From NCBI GenBank assembly GCA_903885165.1, contig CAISHO010000142.1:1-34853 (forward strand): 34,853 nucleotides of DNA, in the 5' to 3' direction. A model generated the notes under the pieces. It had not been told where the DNA came from. It made no database searches and saw only the letters and a list, made by a program, of their open reading frames with translations. Position numbers and translations under genes: made by a program. The stretch comes from an uncultured Nitrosomonadales bacterium. GTDB taxonomy: Bacteria > Pseudomonadota > Gammaproteobacteria > Burkholderiales > Gallionellaceae. Positions 20,163 through 25,460 of the stretch are shown here, in pieces; within the stretch, counting starts at the first letter, position 1; every line of letters begins with the position of its first letter.

Positions 20163-21323
20163 TCAATGTTCTTTTCCATCCACCCGCGATTGCAACAAAT
20201 ATGGAATATAGCGCCAGGCGAGCACAGAGTAACTAAAAAACCAGCAGGCTGCGGCAAGCATAATCCAAATTTTATAGTCAGCCTCATCAATCTGCGGCGC
20301 GATCAATCGATAGGCAAATGCCAGCAGCATCAGCCAGAGCACCAGTTTATCTCCAAAATCAAATACCACCATGCGACCGGTGTGCCCCTTAGTAATGCGC
20401 ATCAGCATAGCCGGTATAATCAGCCCCATTGCACCAAAGGTAAATACATGAATAGAAATGGAAATCGAAAATTCAGGATGCCGCGTTAAACGCAAGGCTT
20501 CGATGACCAGTTGCGCGATGATCGCCAGATAGCCCAGATACATGATACCGATATCGAGTCGCTGCATGGCCAGATACGGTTTCCAGAACAAAAACCTGAA
20601 GCTCAACAGCAGCGCGGCGAGTAAAGCGATTGCGCCCGCCAGGGGCGGTGGCAGAAAACTGGCGAACACCAGTGTCAAACCAGACAGTTTGATGGCTAGG
20701 TTCAACGTCGAGTTACTCAAAATTTCAACCTGAAACGAACCACGCATGAATTGCGTTACGGTACGCTCCAGCATCACCAGAAATGCCACCCGAAACAATC
20801 CGACCGCCATCACCAGTCCGTCCTGAAAATAGTCCGCACTCAACAACAGATTCTTACTGATCAAAAACATCGGTAAAACTAGTAAAAAAAGGAAATTATC
20901 TCGATAGAAATCAGTCTTGCGGTTACGAGCCAGCGTCCAGGCAATCATCGCCACGATAGAACCCAGAAACAGATGATTGGAAAAGAAAAAAAGCCAATGC
21001 GGCAACAGCCCTTCAAACCACATCCCTGCCCGTTCCAGCAACCAGGCGACCACAAGAAACATCAGCGCAGCCCCGTGATAGCCGCGCACCTTGACCCAAC
21101 TACGGGTAGCAGTGAGCAAAAATCCACCCAGAACCGCCCAGCCAAAACCGAAAAACATCTCATGCGCATGCCACTGCAGCACTGAAAACGTCGTTTTCGG
21201 CGCGAGTATCAGGTCTGAATAAATCCATGCCCAGACTACCGGAAGCGTGAGACCGGCTAAGATTGCCAGTATAAAGAACGGGCGAAAACCCAGCAGCCAG
21301 AGGGGATGTGTAGAGAATTTCAT
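20163..21323 (-). CDS. nnrS: NnrS family membrane protein
   Basis: A 386-residue protein with about 12 hydrophobic helices. The start MKFSTHPLWLLGFRPFFILA matches the conserved PLWxLGFRPFF opening of NnrS, and LQWHAHEMFFGFGWAVLGGF with two close histidines is the next family block; HVFTFGAMGLIIPAMLMRITKGHTGR is the diagnostic late block. NnrS proteins are heme- and copper-containing and protect cells against nitric oxide, as shown for Rhodobacter and Vibrio homologues. It lies 41 bases after nsrR on the same strand, consistent with a common transcript under NsrR control. Confidence 0.93.
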   Translation of the reverse strand: MKFSTHPLWLLGFRPFFILAILAGLTLPVVWAWIYSDLILAPKTTFSVLQWHAHEMFFGFGWAVLGGFLLTATRSWVKVRGYHGAALMFLVVAWLLERAGMWFEGLLPHWLFFFSNHLFLGSIVAMIAWTLARNRKTDFYRDNFLFLLVLPMFLISKNLLLSADYFQDGLVMAVGLFRVAFLVMLERTVTQFMRGSFQVEILSNSTLNLAIKLSGLTLVFASFLPPPLAGAIALLAALLLSFRFLFWKPYLAMQRLDIGIMYLGYLAIIAQLVIEALRLTRHPEFSISISIHVFTFGAMGLIIPAMLMRITKGHTGRMVVFDFGDKLVLWLMLLAFAYRLIAPQIDEADYKIWIMLAAACWFFSYSVLAWRYIPYLLQSRVDGKEH

Positions 21324-21364
21324 CGAATTTTAAAGAAGTAATTGAGGAGAGATAAGCACCAATT

Positions 21365-21829
21365 TCAACTGCGCGCGACGCGTACGGCTGGTATTTTTTC
21401 CAACATAAGAGCGGCATTAAACGTTGCACCCTCCTTCACCAGATCTGCCAGCGTCGATTGTCGCAGCACGGCAAAAAAGGCAGCAAGCGCGTTATCAAGC
21501 ACCCCGCTCAACTTGCAAGCTCCGATAATTACACAAGGATTTTTTGCCTCGCCGAAACACTCCACCAGATTGAAGTCGTCTTCGGTGGCACGCAGCACAT
21601 TCTCGACGTTAATTTCAGAGGGAGAACGCGCGAGCTTGACGCCACCATTGCGCCCGCGAGTGCTGACTATCAGACCGGATTTAGTCAGTTGATGAGAAAT
21701 TTTCACAAGATGATTTTTTGAGATGGAAAAACGTTCGCTGACCTCCTGTATAGTGACGGATTGTCCATAGCGCAATGCCAGATACATCATCAGGCGTAAC
21801 CCCAGATCCGAATAGAGCGTCAGTTTCAT
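21365..21829 (-). CDS. nsrR: Rrf2-family nitric-oxide-sensing repressor NsrR
   Basis: A 154-residue Rrf2 regulator. The opening MKLTLYSDLGLRLMMYLALR and the helix-turn-helix segment SVTIQEVSERFSISKNHLVK are like NsrR, and TRGRNGGVKLARSP is the wing. Three cysteines at 91, 99 and 105 (C-x7-C-x5-C) correspond to the [Fe-S] ligands of NsrR; in E. coli the spacing is Cys91-Cys96-Cys102. IscR-type spacing does not fit. NO damage to the cluster relieves repression. The gene starts two bases after the HPP gene stop, and a matching palindrome lies upstream of the operon. Confidence 0.88.
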   Translation of the reverse strand: MKLTLYSDLGLRLMMYLALRYGQSVTIQEVSERFSISKNHLVKISHQLTKSGLIVSTRGRNGGVKLARSPSEINVENVLRATEDDFNLVECFGEAKNPCVIIGACKLSGVLDNALAAFFAVLRQSTLADLVKEGATFNAALMLEKIPAVRVARS

Positions 21830-21831
21830 CC

Positions 21832-22761
21832 CTACCCCTCAAAGGCAACTTGCCGTATCCTGCGCCAGGCATCGTCTTTCAGTATCACTTCATATTGCTG
21901 CCAGTTGCTAAAGTCGGTCAGCGTCGCCGTTTTAACGATACCTTCCCCGTAGCCTGTCACGACTTGATAAGTCACCTCATCGCCCGACAAAAATTGCACC
22001 TTACGCACCGAAAGATCTTCTCCCTGCTCGCCATTGCTGTAATAAAGCCCCGCCGAAATTTGTTCTGACAAATCCGACAATTGCCAGGCATGCTTAACGG
22101 CCAGCCGGTATATTTTGCTCAAATCATCCTCAGAAATATCGACATAGGAACCGATCTCGCCCAATGCATATTTAAAATCTCCATGACCCAACTGGTTGTG
22201 CACTTCGGTTTTTTGCACCTTAGCCGCCGCCGGCCGTAAACCTGCAGGATAGCGACGCCACGGAAAAGCATAGTTCACCAAGACGGCAACTATCAGAATC
22301 ACCATCGCATTGAGCAACACCGGCGTCAACACAAACTGAAAACCCATCGCGTGCAGCGATTCTCCGCCCATCACCGCAGTGAGCGCGGTAGCACCTCCCG
22401 GCGGATGTATACAACGCAGATAGTACATCGCCGCGATCGCCAATCCAACTGCGAGGGGCGCTGCGATCAGCGGGTTTGAAATTGATTGCGCGCATGCAAC
22501 ACCGATCAGGGCGGACACCAGATGACCGCCCAGCACGGGCCAGGGCTGAGAGAGCGCGCCACCCGGCACGGCAAACAGCAAGACCGCCGAAGCGCCCATC
22601 GAGGCGACCAGCATGGCAGCCCCTTGTATCCCCAGATAATGCCCGCTTACCCAAATAACCAATAAAACTCCGATGAATCCACCGGCTGCCGAAATGAGTT
22701 TTTCGGCGTGACCGGTCGCGTCAGCCGAAATTCCCAATATCTTATTGATTTTATTTAACAT
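21832..22761 (-). CDS. HPP family membrane protein with extra C-terminal domain
   Basis: A 309-residue protein. Residues about 20-175 hold 5-6 hydrophobic helices and the HPP signature CIHPPGGATAL near residue 117; GGHLVSALIGVA precedes it. HPP proteins are integral membrane proteins, and a plant plastid member has been linked to nitrite transport. Residues about 185-309 are soluble and mostly polar (HGDFKYALGEIGSYVDISED, then WQLSDLSEQISAGLYYSNG and a beta-rich end); I do not recognise this part. The gene lies between a DUF2249 gene and nsrR. Together these suggest a role with nitrite or NO, which is inferred from context. Confidence 0.85.
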   Translation of the reverse strand: MLNKINKILGISADATGHAEKLISAAGGFIGVLLVIWVSGHYLGIQGAAMLVASMGASAVLLFAVPGGALSQPWPVLGGHLVSALIGVACAQSISNPLIAAPLAVGLAIAAMYYLRCIHPPGGATALTAVMGGESLHAMGFQFVLTPVLLNAMVILIVAVLVNYAFPWRRYPAGLRPAAAKVQKTEVHNQLGHGDFKYALGEIGSYVDISEDDLSKIYRLAVKHAWQLSDLSEQISAGLYYSNGEQGEDLSVRKVQFLSGDEVTYQVVTGYGEGIVKTATLTDFSNWQQYEVILKDDAWRRIRQVAFEG

Positions 22762-22792
22762 TTTTTAGATGACACAATTGACGAAGGCTCGA

Positions 22793-23053
22793 TTATAGCC
22801 GTTTAAAATTGATCGCGATTTGACCGGGTTCCCGACTGACGTAGTGAATTGAAATCCGCTCTCCGTAACGCTGTGTTAGTTGCGAGAGCAGAGGCACAGG
22901 ATCGTGATCGTTGACGAAACTCATGGTCTCACCAGGATTCAAGGCATCCAGCGCACCAAAAATGGCGGCATGACGAAAGCGTTTTGCAACACCGCGCGCA
23001 TCAAACGGATAGCACAAATCAAAAGAAATGGTATTAGCGCAATTGTGTGTCAT
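22793..23053 (-). CDS. DUF2249 protein
   Basis: An 86-residue protein starting at ATG 23051-23053, chosen because AAAGGA lies about 8 bases upstream; the longer frame from 23098 lacks this. The core has FDARGVAKRFRHAAIFGALDALNPGETM, then the family motif NDHDPVPLLSQLTQRYG and a closing EPGQIAINFKRL, which define DUF2249, a small TusA-like fold common near denitrification and NO-stress genes. It has one Asp-His-Asp-Pro (DHDP) motif. It is the first gene of the leftward set and starts 54 bases from the nearest base of the NsrR-like palindrome. Confidence 0.85.
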   Translation of the reverse strand: MTHNCANTISFDLCYPFDARGVAKRFRHAAIFGALDALNPGETMSFVNDHDPVPLLSQLTQRYGERISIHYVSREPGQIAINFKRL

Positions 23054-23106
23054 ACGGGTGTCCTTTTTAGTTGGAAAAATTACAGTCACAGCGCTCATCG
23101 CGTTTT

Positions 23107-23129
23107 AACATGTATAAATGATACATGTT
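23107..23129. promoter_or_regulatory. Perfect palindrome, candidate NsrR operator
   Basis: AACATGTAT (23107-23115), 5-base spacer AAATG, ATACATGTT (23121-23129). The 9-5-9 layout and the AAnATGnAT half-site match the known NsrR consensus (AAGATGCAT-type half-sites in a 23-bp dyad). It lies between the divergent DUF2249 and hemerythrin genes, overlapping where both promoters should be; a TATAGT is at 23135-23140 on the plus strand. Confidence 0.75.
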
Positions 23130-23175
23130 TTATTGTATAGTGCGTAAAGTTTCTAAAACACTAAAGGATATGCAG

Positions 23176-23610
23176 ATGAGCACCCTTTCCACATTCATGA
23201 GCTCTGGACACAAAACCTGCGATGAAGCCTTCGCCATCGCCGAGGAAGCTGCCTTGGGCGGAAACTGGCACAAAGCGAGCGACGCCTTCAATGCGTTCCA
23301 CAACGACATGGCGCAGCATTTTCGCATGGAGGAAGAGATATTATTTCCTGCACTAATCAGCAGCGGAGGACCATCCGGGCCAGTGTCGATCATGCTCATG
23401 GAGCATGCGCAGATGAACGAGTTAATAGAACAGATGGCTGATTCCGTAGCCGGACAGGATGCGGAAGAATACGGCGGTTTATCCGAAACGCTGCTGATCG
23501 TGATGCAACAACACAATCTCAAGGAAGAGCAAATTCTCTACCCCATCGCTGATCGTATTTTGGCGTGGCAAATGGATGAATTATTCACACGACTCAAGGC
23601 AGTTGAATAG
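23176..23610 (+). CDS. Hemerythrin-domain protein (DnrN/YtfE-like context)
   Basis: A 144-residue four-helix protein with the diiron histidines and carboxylates of the hemerythrin fold: His12, His48 and Glu52 in FHNDMAQHFRMEEEILFPAL, His77 in MEHAQMNEL, His113 and Glu117/118 in QQHNLKEEQILYP. ATG 23176 was chosen because AAGGA lies 7 bases upstream; ATG 23170 is too close. NO-induced proteins of this type repair Fe-S clusters or bind NO/O2. It lacks the N-terminal ScdA domain seen in YtfE/RIC. It is the first gene of the rightward set. Confidence 0.9.
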   Translation: MSTLSTFMSSGHKTCDEAFAIAEEAALGGNWHKASDAFNAFHNDMAQHFRMEEEILFPALISSGGPSGPVSIMLMEHAQMNELIEQMADSVAGQDAEEYGGLSETLLIVMQQHNLKEEQILYPIADRILAWQMDELFTRLKAVE

Positions 23611-23612
23611 CA

Positions 23613-23828
23613 ATGATCGCACTGGATGTACGCGGACTGCCACCGCCCGAACCTTTCGAGCAGATCATGCTGGCGCTGGAAACACTCATCAAAGACGATG
23701 TGCTGCGCGTGCTGATACACCGCGAACCCTATCCGCTCTATGAGATGTTGCGCGAATCAGGCTACCGCCACCAGACCACCGCGCTGCCAGACGGCAATTT
23801 TTCCATTGAGATCGGCCGGGCATCATGA
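23613..23828 (+). CDS. Second DUF2249 protein
   Basis: A 71-residue protein: IALDVRGLPPPEPFEQIMLA, the exact opening of DUF2249, then LIHREPYPLYEML and a C-terminal NFSIEIGR strand. It is shorter than the divergent paralogue at 22793 and has REPYPLY in place of DHDPVPLL. It starts two bases after the hemerythrin stop and overlaps the next gene by 4 bases (ATGA), so it is co-translated with both. The function is unknown; the genetic link with a diiron protein suggests a redox or Fe-S partner, which is inference. Confidence 0.85.
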   Translation: MIALDVRGLPPPEPFEQIMLALETLIKDDVLRVLIHREPYPLYEMLRESGYRHQTTALPDGNFSIEIGRAS

Positions 23829-25087
23829 GTACTGCCATGCTCAGCACCGAACAGGCACCGCCTATTACTGTTCCGCTGCGCTTCTTTGCCATGGCCCCCC
23901 TGTTTTTACTGCTGGCTGCCGCAATACTAGCGACAGGTAACAGTTTCACCGACGCGCCCTTACTTTTGGCCGCCACCCACTGCCTGACGCTGGGATTTAT
24001 CACGATGGTAATGGCAGGCGCCATGCAACAGATCTTGCCGGTGGTCATCGGAAGTCCTATGCCGGCCTCAAAATCGATTGCCTGGCTCACCCTGTTGCCG
24101 ATGAGCACGGGTACGTTATCGTTAGCCGGCGGTTTTCTATATAGCAACCCTGCTCTGCTCTATGCCGCCTGCCTAATATTGGGCTTCGGTTTTTTAATAT
24201 TTATTTCGGCCTGCCTGATCGCCATATATCGCGCCGCCGCACGAACGTCCACCCAATTCGCGCTATTGCTGGCCATTCTCACCCTGACCATCACGGCCAC
24301 CTTGGGTATCATTCTGGCAAACGGCTATGCATCCGGCACCGCATTAGACTATTCGAAACTGACCGCCGCGCACATCAGCATGGGGCTAGGTGGTTGGGTG
24401 ATATTGCTGATTGCCGGTGTCTCCTATCAGGTAGTACCGATGTTCCAATTGACACCTAATTATCCCGGCTGGTTCTCGTCTGGTTTTGCGCCCGCCCTGT
24501 TCGTCGTCCTGCTGCTGGGTCTAGTTGCTCGCTGGTGGGATGTCATTTCATTGGGCTATTTATCAGCCGGACTTTTCTGGATGTTGGCGGTCAGTTTTGC
24601 AATAATCACCTTGAGACTGCAAAGCCAGCGCCGGCGACGGGTTGCCGATGCGACTTTGAGCTTTTTCCGGTTAGGGATGAGCAGCCTGTTGTGCGTCGCA
24701 CTACTTTCAACGTTAGCCCTGTATCCACCGCTGCAAGAAGATTTGACGACACTGTCCGTCGTCATTTTCATCACGGGTTTTGCGCTATCCGTGATTTTTG
24801 GCATGTTATACAAGATTGTGCCGTTCCTGGTCTGGTTCCATCTGTTTCGCGGCGGCGTCAAAAAAGGCGTGCCCAACATGAAATCCATTATCCCTGAAGT
24901 CTGGATGTGGCGGCATGTACAGTTGCACCGGGCGACCCTGCTGGCGATCCTGACCGCTTCAATCTGGAATCCGGCCCGCTGGCTGGCAATAACAGGGCTG
25001 GCACTCCAAAGCATACTACTGAGTTATGCCCTGTTCACGGCGATTACCATTTATCAGCGGACTCTTAAAAATCTCACTAACGCCTGA
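23825..25087 (+). CDS. 12-helix membrane protein, NnrS-like or heme-copper-oxidase-I-like
   Basis: A 420-residue protein with about 12 hydrophobic segments and no large soluble domain. Histidines lie in or at the ends of helices: His52 in AATHCLTLGFITMVMAGAM, His183 in AAHISMGLGGWVILLIAG, His339 in PFLVWFHLFRGG, and His364/His368 in WRHVQLHR. This spread is reminiscent of heme-binding membrane proteins such as NnrS and the CcoN/NorB subunit. It has no close match to the NnrS opening at 21323, so I call it a distant relative only. It lies between DUF2249 and SirB genes. Confidence 0.7.
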   Translation: MSTAMLSTEQAPPITVPLRFFAMAPLFLLLAAAILATGNSFTDAPLLLAATHCLTLGFITMVMAGAMQQILPVVIGSPMPASKSIAWLTLLPMSTGTLSLAGGFLYSNPALLYAACLILGFGFLIFISACLIAIYRAAARTSTQFALLLAILTLTITATLGIILANGYASGTALDYSKLTAAHISMGLGGWVILLIAGVSYQVVPMFQLTPNYPGWFSSGFAPALFVVLLLGLVARWWDVISLGYLSAGLFWMLAVSFAIITLRLQSQRRRRVADATLSFFRLGMSSLLCVALLSTLALYPPLQEDLTTLSVVIFITGFALSVIFGMLYKIVPFLVWFHLFRGGVKKGVPNMKSIIPEVWMWRHVQLHRATLLAILTASIWNPARWLAITGLALQSILLSYALFTAITIYQRTLKNLTNA

Positions 25088-25088
25088 C

Positions 25089-25460
25089 ATGAATCTGATT
25101 AAAACACTCCATGTATCCTGTGTCCTAATCAGCTATACGCTGTTTTTTCTGCGCGGAATCTGGACACTGAAAGCGTCCAACATCATGCAGCAACGCTGGG
25201 TCAAAATCGTGCCACATCTGGTCGATACCCTGCTGATTTCTTCTGCCATACTGCTCGCCTACTCGATCGGACAATACCCGTTTCAAGACGTCTGGCTAAC
25301 CGAAAAATTTCTCGCCCTGCTGCTGTATATCGGGCTGGGGTCCATTGCCCTGCACGGTGGTAAAAATATGACGCAACGCCTGTTAGCCTGGCTGGCCGCA
25401 CAAGCGATATTTGCCTGCATTGTGACCATCGCCCTCCGCCACGCATCCATCTTCCTATGA
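25089..25460 (+). CDS. SirB-family membrane protein
   Basis: A 123-residue protein with four hydrophobic helices. MNLIKTLHVSCVLISYTLFF is a typical SirB opening with the conserved His in KTLHV; LRGIWTLK, KIVPHLVDTLLISSAI and a late GGKNMTQRLLAW complete the pattern. ATG 25089 begins one base after the stop of the preceding membrane gene. SirB proteins are of unknown function despite an old link to invasion regulation in Salmonella. Co-transcription with hemerythrin and NnrS-like genes suggests a link to NO stress here. Confidence 0.87.
   Translation: MNLIKTLHVSCVLISYTLFFLRGIWTLKASNIMQQRWVKIVPHLVDTLLISSAILLAYSIGQYPFQDVWLTEKFLALLLYIGLGSIALHGGKNMTQRLLAWLAAQAIFACIVTIALRHASIFL

Follow-up and report, generated by a model that had tools for sequence, protein, structure and literature searches.

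A conserved hemerythrin-DUF2249-TM12 gene core associated with denitrification, with NsrR-like upstream sites in a Gallionella-like clade

Do eight genes that diverge from one palindrome in a Gallionellaceae genome form a single nitric oxide (NO) defence system, and if not, which of them belong together? This question is raised by a stretch of 34,853 nucleotides (nt), contig CAISHO010000142.1 of an uncultured Nitrosomonadales bacterium, called here the window; it is one whole contig of a 2.44-Mb genome (151 contigs, 99.7% complete). The original prediction, made from the letters alone, proposed that these genes could be a compact NO-response module. As one compact system the eight genes were not borne out, since just two of 117 loci have their full order; what is conserved is an inner core encoding a hemerythrin-like protein, a DUF2249 protein and a 12-helix membrane protein, called here TM12. 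The reading that we favour, with a probability of roughly 0.55, is that the locus is an NO-responsive accessory module of denitrification, protecting or repairing iron centres.

The two head-to-head sets of genes are present as predicted, each gene at its predicted position apart from the correction of two starts. Pfam confirms seven of the eight families, the exception being the 420-amino-acid (aa) TM12. The features are as follows (articles identified by PMC number are cited throughout from the parts of their text available to us):

20163-21323, reverse strand: nnrS, 386 aa, membrane protein of NO-response operons (PF05940, 230 bits, profile positions 1-371 of 371)
21365-21829, reverse strand: nsrR-type Rrf2 regulator, 154 aa, with Asp8 and Cys91, Cys99 and Cys105 (PF02082, 126 bits)
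21832-22761, reverse strand: HPP-family membrane protein (PF04982, TM_HPP, 170 bits, residues 18-172 only)
22793-23053, reverse strand: DUF2249 protein (a), two invariant His (PF10006, 90 bits)
23107-23129, no strand: NsrR-like operator, perfect 9-5-9 palindrome between the arms (motif published in PMC1274295)
23170-23610, forward strand: hemerythrin-like (HHE) protein, 146 aa (PF01814, 77 bits; alignment with YtfE)
23613-23828, forward strand: DUF2249 protein (b), TusA-like, PPEP without Cys (PF10006, 62 bits; TusA, 28.7 bits)
23825-25087, forward strand: TM12, 420 aa, 12-helix protein of predicted heme-copper-oxidase fold, invariant H52 and H183 (AlphaFold2, Foldseek, conservation)
25089-25460, forward strand: SirB-family four-helix membrane protein, 123 aa (PF04247, 131 bits; AlphaFold2 predicted local distance difference test, pLDDT, 87)

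The genes are tightly packed, with gaps of 41 nt (nnrS-nsrR), 2 nt (nsrR-HPP) and 31 nt (HPP-DUF2249) in the leftward arm and, in the rightward arm, of 2 nt (hemerythrin-DUF2249), a 4-nt overlap (DUF2249-TM12) and 1 nt (TM12-sirB). The hemerythrin gene most likely begins at 23170 and not at the start of its open reading frame (ORF), 23125, because the latter falls within the palindrome. DUF2249 (a) most likely begins at 23053, preceded by AAAAAGGA, though its ORF extends to 23098.

Of 150 genomes of the order searched for TM12, among them the window's own, 45 gave a match, 43 of these over most of its length. The 42 foreign loci from these genomes, the best 80 of 576 loci confirmed in a genome collection, and the window gave 117 distinct loci after six duplicates were dropped; being the best 80 of 576, the collection loci lean to near relatives. 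Neighbours were found by hidden Markov model search of stop-to-stop ORFs with domain coordinates. Greedy gene calling was dropped, as it gave many wrong-strand ORFs and lost TM12 at a number of loci, and models built on whole ORFs were left unused for their inflated SirB scores. At 101 of the 117 loci TM12 is preceded on its strand, within 2 kb, by both the hemerythrin and the DUF2249 domains. At 8 loci the hemerythrin alone accompanies TM12, at 4 the DUF2249 alone (one at a contig end), and at the last 4 neither is found upstream (two contig ends, two rearranged). The gaps between the core domains are mostly short (medians of 50 and 42 nt). Since the loci were found by TM12 alone, these neighbours were unselected. 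By contrast with this widespread core, the complete eight-gene order is confined to the window and one close relative (L087), some contigs ending before the outer genes, so that the predicted order stood for its inner part only. Within 6 kb of TM12, NnrS is present at 26 of the 117 loci, a DUF2249 (a)-type protein at 24, NsrR at 18, SirB at 17 (one weak) and HPP at 10 (two weak); HPP, SirB and DUF2249 (a) are looser attachments to the core. Among the 150 sampled genomes, TM12 occurs in 23 family-level groups. The closest TM12 relative among the matches listed is that of L087, a proteobacterial assembly from Lac Pavin (64%), and the next ones listed are mainly from Gallionella, Sideroxydans and other Gallionellales assemblies; the source is therefore probably a betaproteobacterium of Gallionella-like kind.

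Two loci that share a very long branch in the tree of TM12 (L071 and L072) have another arrangement, in which TM12 is followed by two DUF2249 (b)-type domains, a DUF2249 (a) gene and a gene resembling quinol-type NO reductase (qNOR), and is not preceded by the hemerythrin-DUF2249 pair.

What kind of protein is TM12? It has no Pfam match above cut-off and no NCBIfam match at E values up to 1. The AlphaFold2 model (pLDDT 96, predicted template modelling score 0.94) has 12 helices, as had been read from the translation. Its best PDB matches are CcoN chains of cbb3 oxidase (Foldseek E 1e-6, template modelling score 0.73, probability 1.00), followed by NorB of the cytochrome c-type NO reductase (cNOR; E 7e-5, 0.60 and 1.00), and the TM12 sequence profile also finds CcoN (E 2e-4). 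Of 41 TM12 members scanned at E values up to 1, five match NnrS (best 6e-7) and four match COX1 (best 7e-5), weak Pfam matches to other families being disregarded; the window's TM12 reaches only 9.3 bits on COX1 (PF00115, cut-off 34.8). The predicted model thus confidently assigns TM12 the 12-helix heme-copper-oxidase fold. Six His residues bind the hemes and metals in this superfamily, whereas His52 and His183 are the sole invariant His of the TM12 family. In the model they lie in the second and sixth long helices and occupy equivalent positions in four-helix units one and two; unit three lacks an invariant His of this kind. Alignment pairs the region of His52 with the HVH-bearing segment of CcoN and places His52 on its second His, which we take to be a low-spin heme ligand. 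Two invariant His leave no ligand set for a catalytic heme-copper or heme-iron pair and fall short of what an oxidase or NO reductase would need. The simplest reading of the model is that TM12 may bind one bis-His heme b without a catalytic heme-metal centre. The protein therefore shares its predicted fold with CcoN and NorB but differs in having two invariant His only; like NnrS it has many helices, but the window's TM12 has no match to PF05940.

A multi-helix protein with HVH and HLH motifs is encoded on contig 44 of the same genome (L167:487-1722, reverse strand), divergent beside norCB; its score on the TM12 model is only 21 bits, which would make it a distant relative at most.

The hemerythrin-like partner has the ligands H14, H50, E54, H79, H115 and E119, and the pattern H...HxxxE...H...HxxxE is kept in 99-100% of 110 sequences, window included. 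Among solved structures, those of YtfE match it best (E 2e-6). It shares the di-iron ligand pattern of YtfE/RIC and differs from these proteins in being short and in having an additional conserved Cys. This Cys17 lies three residues past the first His, does not belong to the ligands usual in hemerythrins, and is conserved in 97% of the 110 sequences. In DUF2249 (b), which scores 28.7 bits on TusA (cut-off 28.6), PPEP replaces the CPxP motif that bears the sulfur-carrying Cys of TusA, so that the catalytic Cys is absent; the four letters of PPEP are kept in 92, 95, 94 and 100% of 105 sequences, window included. The two His of DUF2249 (a) are kept in 29 of 29 sequences, again including the window.

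Is the regulator of the leftward arm an NsrR, and does the palindrome fit it? The best solved relative of the Rrf2 protein is NsrR (PDB 5n07), with all four cluster ligands aligned. Asp8 and the three Cys, presumably the ligands of the NsrR cluster (Cys91, Cys99 and Cys105), are invariant in 21 of 21 aligned regulator sequences, window included. The palindrome, AACATGTAT-N5-ATACATGTT (23107-23115 and 23121-23129), has arms that are 100% complementary, and both of its hexamers agree with the NsrR motif gATGyAT-(N5)-ATrCATc (Rodionov 2005, PMC1274295). Exact matches to ATGYAT-N5-ATRCAT occur at two places in the 2.44-Mb genome, the palindrome and one in coding sequence. The latter lies in a region that we read as ftsQ. 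At the genome rate, an exact motif is expected in the shared promoter region of about 116 bp about once in 10,000 cases. If one mismatch is tolerated, 13 such places are counted in the genome against 2 for the reversed-pattern control, and the count inside the window alone is not significant (1 found, 0.58 expected). A consensus scan of the shared region found no sigma-70-like promoter. Thus both the NsrR-type regulator, by its retained ligands, and the NsrR-type operator between the arms, by its motif, stood as originally predicted. A wide NsrR regulon in this genome was rejected, as the only other exact site is coding; the 11 further one-mismatch places were not checked singly.

The sites upstream of the core differ between clades. 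We scanned 108 distinct regions upstream of the hemerythrin gene, 92 outside and 16 inside a Gallionella-like set. The consensus of the FNR/DNR-type site was taken to be TTGAY-N4-RTCAA, by which FNR and DNR are indistinguishable. Outside the set this site is present with at most one mismatch at 67 of 92 loci (exact at 48), compared with 0 exact and 2 with mismatch in the reversed control and means of 0.1 and 3.2 in shuffles; of 51 exact sites, 42 begin between 68 and 94 bases ahead of the domain start. Loci within the set lack it at up to one mismatch (0 of 16). There, NsrR-like sites are present instead: 2 exact, 7 with at most one mismatch and 11 with at most two, against 0, 0 and 2 in the reversed control and shuffle means of 0.25 (one mismatch) and 1.7 (two). 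The corresponding counts outside the set are 0, 2 and 6 of 92. Two loci with a divergent NsrR gene (L068 and L069) combine FNR/DNR-type and NsrR-like sites, each at one or two mismatches, and on a further TM12 branch 15 of 19 rows have neither. In an unrooted quick TM12 tree the Gallionella-like set is a single branch of 17 rows (Shimodaira-Hasegawa-like approximate likelihood ratio test, 100), inside a supported branch of 48 rows of which 24 have FNR-type sites. Because the set is a single branch, it represents one event without independent replication, and independent pairs of NsrR gene and operator are too few for their correlated change to be judged on the tree. The best reading of these sequences is that the core was probably brought under NsrR control once, in the Gallionella-like clade.

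Does the core go with NO metabolism? The window's genome encodes nirS and two further cytochrome-d1-domain genes on contig 49, while contig 44 carries the set norC-norB-norE-norQ-norD; the nor names come from our own reading of the ORFs, and for NorB the family was also found by search. The NirK model had no match in this genome. Since nirS and norCB are encoded, the organism should make its own NO. Among the 150 genomes, nirS or nirK is present in 34 of 43 with TM12 and in 21 of 107 without (Fisher 1e-11); the counts are 28 of 43 and 10 of 107 for NirS alone, 25 and 11 for cNOR (3e-9), and 40 and 38 for NnrS. These p-values are overstated because the sampled genomes are related. The predicted tie to NO metabolism nevertheless holds in these statistics. 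One assembly of the window's genus (G115, locus L033) keeps NsrR, HPP, HHE, DUF2249, TM12 and SirB and has, by the cut-offs used, no match to nirS, nirK, cNOR or NnrS.

The gene neighbourhoods point the same way. We listed 45 clusters of neighbours and scanned 20 representatives with Pfam; 12 of these had no match at E 1e-5 and were taken as antisense ORFs. At least one of a short list of neighbours lies within 6 kb of TM12 at 65 of 116 foreign loci; 63 of them belong to the 100 loci outside the Gallionella-like set, and the other 2 to its 16 foreign members. The neighbours on this list are Crp/Fnr (24 loci), NirS-family (20), U32 (18 and 16), NorB-type (17), SCP2 (14) and cytochrome c (14) proteins; we take the U32 and SCP2 genes to be ubiUVT. 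Among the 20 NirS-family proteins, 16 show an identity of 40% or higher to the NirS representative, and the other four, at 23-25%, are perhaps NirN or NirF. Among the 17 NorB-type proteins, 13 resemble cNOR (76-92% to the NorB of the window's genome) and four, of about 780 residues, are qNOR-like by length. On pSymA of Sinorhizobium meliloti, TM12 has a DUF2249 gene on either side, with a metal-sulfur cluster assembly factor after them, and this set lies between norB-(AAA ATPase)-norD-hemN and nnrS-nirK. On pHG1 of Cupriavidus necator H16, a hemerythrin-TM12-Crp/Fnr set is located between nar, nnrS and nosZ; its hemerythrin and TM12 genes carry the tags H16_RS32790-RS32785. Both TM12 proteins (202 and 253 bits on the TM12 model, respectively) are annotated as 'hypothetical protein'. 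A literature search by locus tag, with guessed tags, found no expression data for the S. meliloti locus.

Regarding the outer genes, NnrS matches PF05940 above cut-off over its full length, and the HPP protein matches the PF04982 domain. Past residue 172 the latter has a C-terminal extension of about 135 residues (21832-22245) without Pfam match. Another HPP-family protein transports nitrite (Maeda 2014, described in PMC4137279), and DUF2249 has been placed, as COG4309, in the NsrR and NnrR regulons (PMC1274295); the original statement that the partner families have little or no biochemistry therefore needs amending for these two. SirB was considered as a fourth oxidase-like piece and rejected, its best PDB match being at E 0.31 with no oxidase subunit I among the best. 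At the far end of the contig (34387-34851, reverse strand) lies an open-ended ORF made of short GQRKSGQRRS-like repeats.

How might these parts work together? In the mechanism that we propose, an iron-sulfur NsrR would hold the palindrome and repress both arms; the motif and the ligands are observed, and binding would follow from them. NO from the cell's own NirS would damage the cluster and open both arms. At the heart of the right arm is the core, whose conservation the comparison shows; it joins TM12 to the di-iron hemerythrin-like protein and to the DUF2249 protein that is TusA-like but lacks the Cys. TM12 would hold one heme b between His52 and His183 and might pass electrons from the quinone pool via DUF2249 to the di-iron protein, which would remove NO from, or restore, damaged iron and iron-sulfur centres, as is thought for YtfE and NnrS, while HPP may move nitrite. 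In most other bacteria examined the core lies behind an FNR/DNR-type site, whose place is taken by NsrR-like sites in the Gallionella-like clade. Defence of the iron pool against dinitrosyl complexes is ascribed to NnrS, and protection of iron-sulfur proteins to YtfE (PMC11526790).

Several observations weigh against this reading. Five of the 16 members of the clade have no NsrR-like site. The regulator misses the NCBIfam NsrR equivalog (108.5 bits, cut-off 182), and the RirA model outscores it at 133.9 bits, itself below its cut-off of 193; we nevertheless read the protein as NsrR and rejected RirA because Asp8 and the operator favour NsrR, RirA having a residue and a motif of its own. The HHE protein reaches 37.4 bits on the RIC model (cut-off 204.7), far below full YtfE/RIC proteins. 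Alignment of TM12 by hhalign gave a probability of 5% with NnrS and 1% with NorB, and the comparison with CcoN was also weak; the heme of TM12 and its electron route are things that we infer, partly from a predicted model. DUF2249 is missing at the eight hemerythrin-TM12 loci and from C. necator pHG1, and the hemerythrin is missing beside TM12 in S. meliloti, so a chain of all three proteins is no strict requirement. TM12 shows no association with NirK alone, which is present in 6 of 43 genomes with TM12 and 11 of 107 without (p 0.57). Finally, nine of the 43 TM12 genomes have neither nirS nor nirK by the cut-offs used, and five of these, including G115, also have no cNOR, qNOR not having been covered genome-wide; one of the five (G057, with locus L071) has a qNOR-like gene near TM12. 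The remaining ones probably fit a role in defence better than a part in the pathway.

These last genomes bear directly on a possible, if unlikely, alternative, that the core serves in the maturation or assembly of denitrification enzymes, with TM12 handling heme, HHE and DUF2249 handling iron or sulfur, and active cd1 nitrite reductase or NO reductase as the product. The linkage to NirS-family, NorB-type and U32/SCP2 genes would suit it, as would the metal-sulfur cluster assembly factor found next to TM12 in Aliarcobacter and, with one DUF2249 gene in between, in S. meliloti. Yet the five genomes have none of these enzymes by the cut-offs used, apart from the one qNOR-like gene, 21 genomes with nirS or nirK do without TM12, and NsrR control would suit defence better than assembly. 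A sensory or regulatory role, with DUF2249 and TM12 sensing nitrate, nitrite or NO and tuning denitrification, as has been proposed for DrpA in Thermus, has a slim chance: loss of the DUF2249 protein DrpA alters nitrate control (PMC6282519) and Crp/Fnr genes lie near TM12 at 24 of 116 loci, but Pfam found no DNA-binding or signalling domain in the core proteins, and the near-invariant di-iron ligands suit chemistry as well as sensing.

The scarcity of the full order and the optional HPP, SirB and DUF2249 (a) would also fit a loose neighbourhood of stress genes in which the palindrome controls one arm or nsrR alone. Its chance is slimmer, given a core kept at 101 of 117 loci and NsrR-like sites that recur upstream of it within the clade. 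Least probable is a new kind of NO reductase, with a di-iron catalytic site and TM12 as its quinol-fed heme b partner; the conserved di-iron ligands, the oxidase-type fold and two invariant His at matching places of two four-helix units would allow it, but 25 of 43 TM12 genomes already have cNOR and the electron-transfer partner is hypothetical. A more daring reading, itself quite unlikely, is that the core is an undescribed membrane-linked di-iron enzyme system, in which TM12, a one-heme relic of the oxidase fold, would feed quinol electrons via the Cys-less TusA-like carrier to the soluble di-iron site, removing NO or nitrosyl from cellular iron. If true, the core would be a further NO route beside NO reductases and flavohemoglobins.

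Two described systems are among the closest to the locus. The NsrR regulon of beta- and gammaproteobacteria shares the operator motif, counts nnrS and DUF2249 (COG4309) among its predicted members and is linked to norB; there, COG4309 is paired with norB, and the available text names neither a hemerythrin-DUF2249-TM12 core nor HPP or SirB (Rodionov 2005, PMC1274295). The nnrS-nsrR-dnrN/ytfE cluster of Methylophaga resembles the window in joining NnrS, NsrR and a di-iron protein, and its transcripts are 2.4-16 times higher in anoxic nitrate cultures; it differs in having a true YtfE and not the short HHE protein, and the available text names no TM12, DUF2249, HPP or SirB (PMC11526790). DUF2249 proteins act in the nitrate respiration of Thermus and haloarchaea (PMC6282519, PMC11218638). 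Pei 2014, on novel families of the heme-copper oxidase superfamily, is cited as linking DUF2249 with that superfamily (PMC11218638), and TM12 may already be one of its families. No description of the core was found in the literature searched, which covered few subscription papers, and it is absent from the available text of PMC1274295, PMC11218638, PMC6282519 and PMC6710368.

Denitrifiers make NO inside the cell and need to guard their iron. The core, whose membrane protein TM12 is unnamed in Pfam and NCBIfam, is now singled out as a unit and TM12 is given a predicted fold, and the activator-type and repressor-type sites that precede the same core in different bacteria offer a natural contrast, making its function testable in denitrifiers open to experiment such as C. 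necator H16 or S. meliloti.

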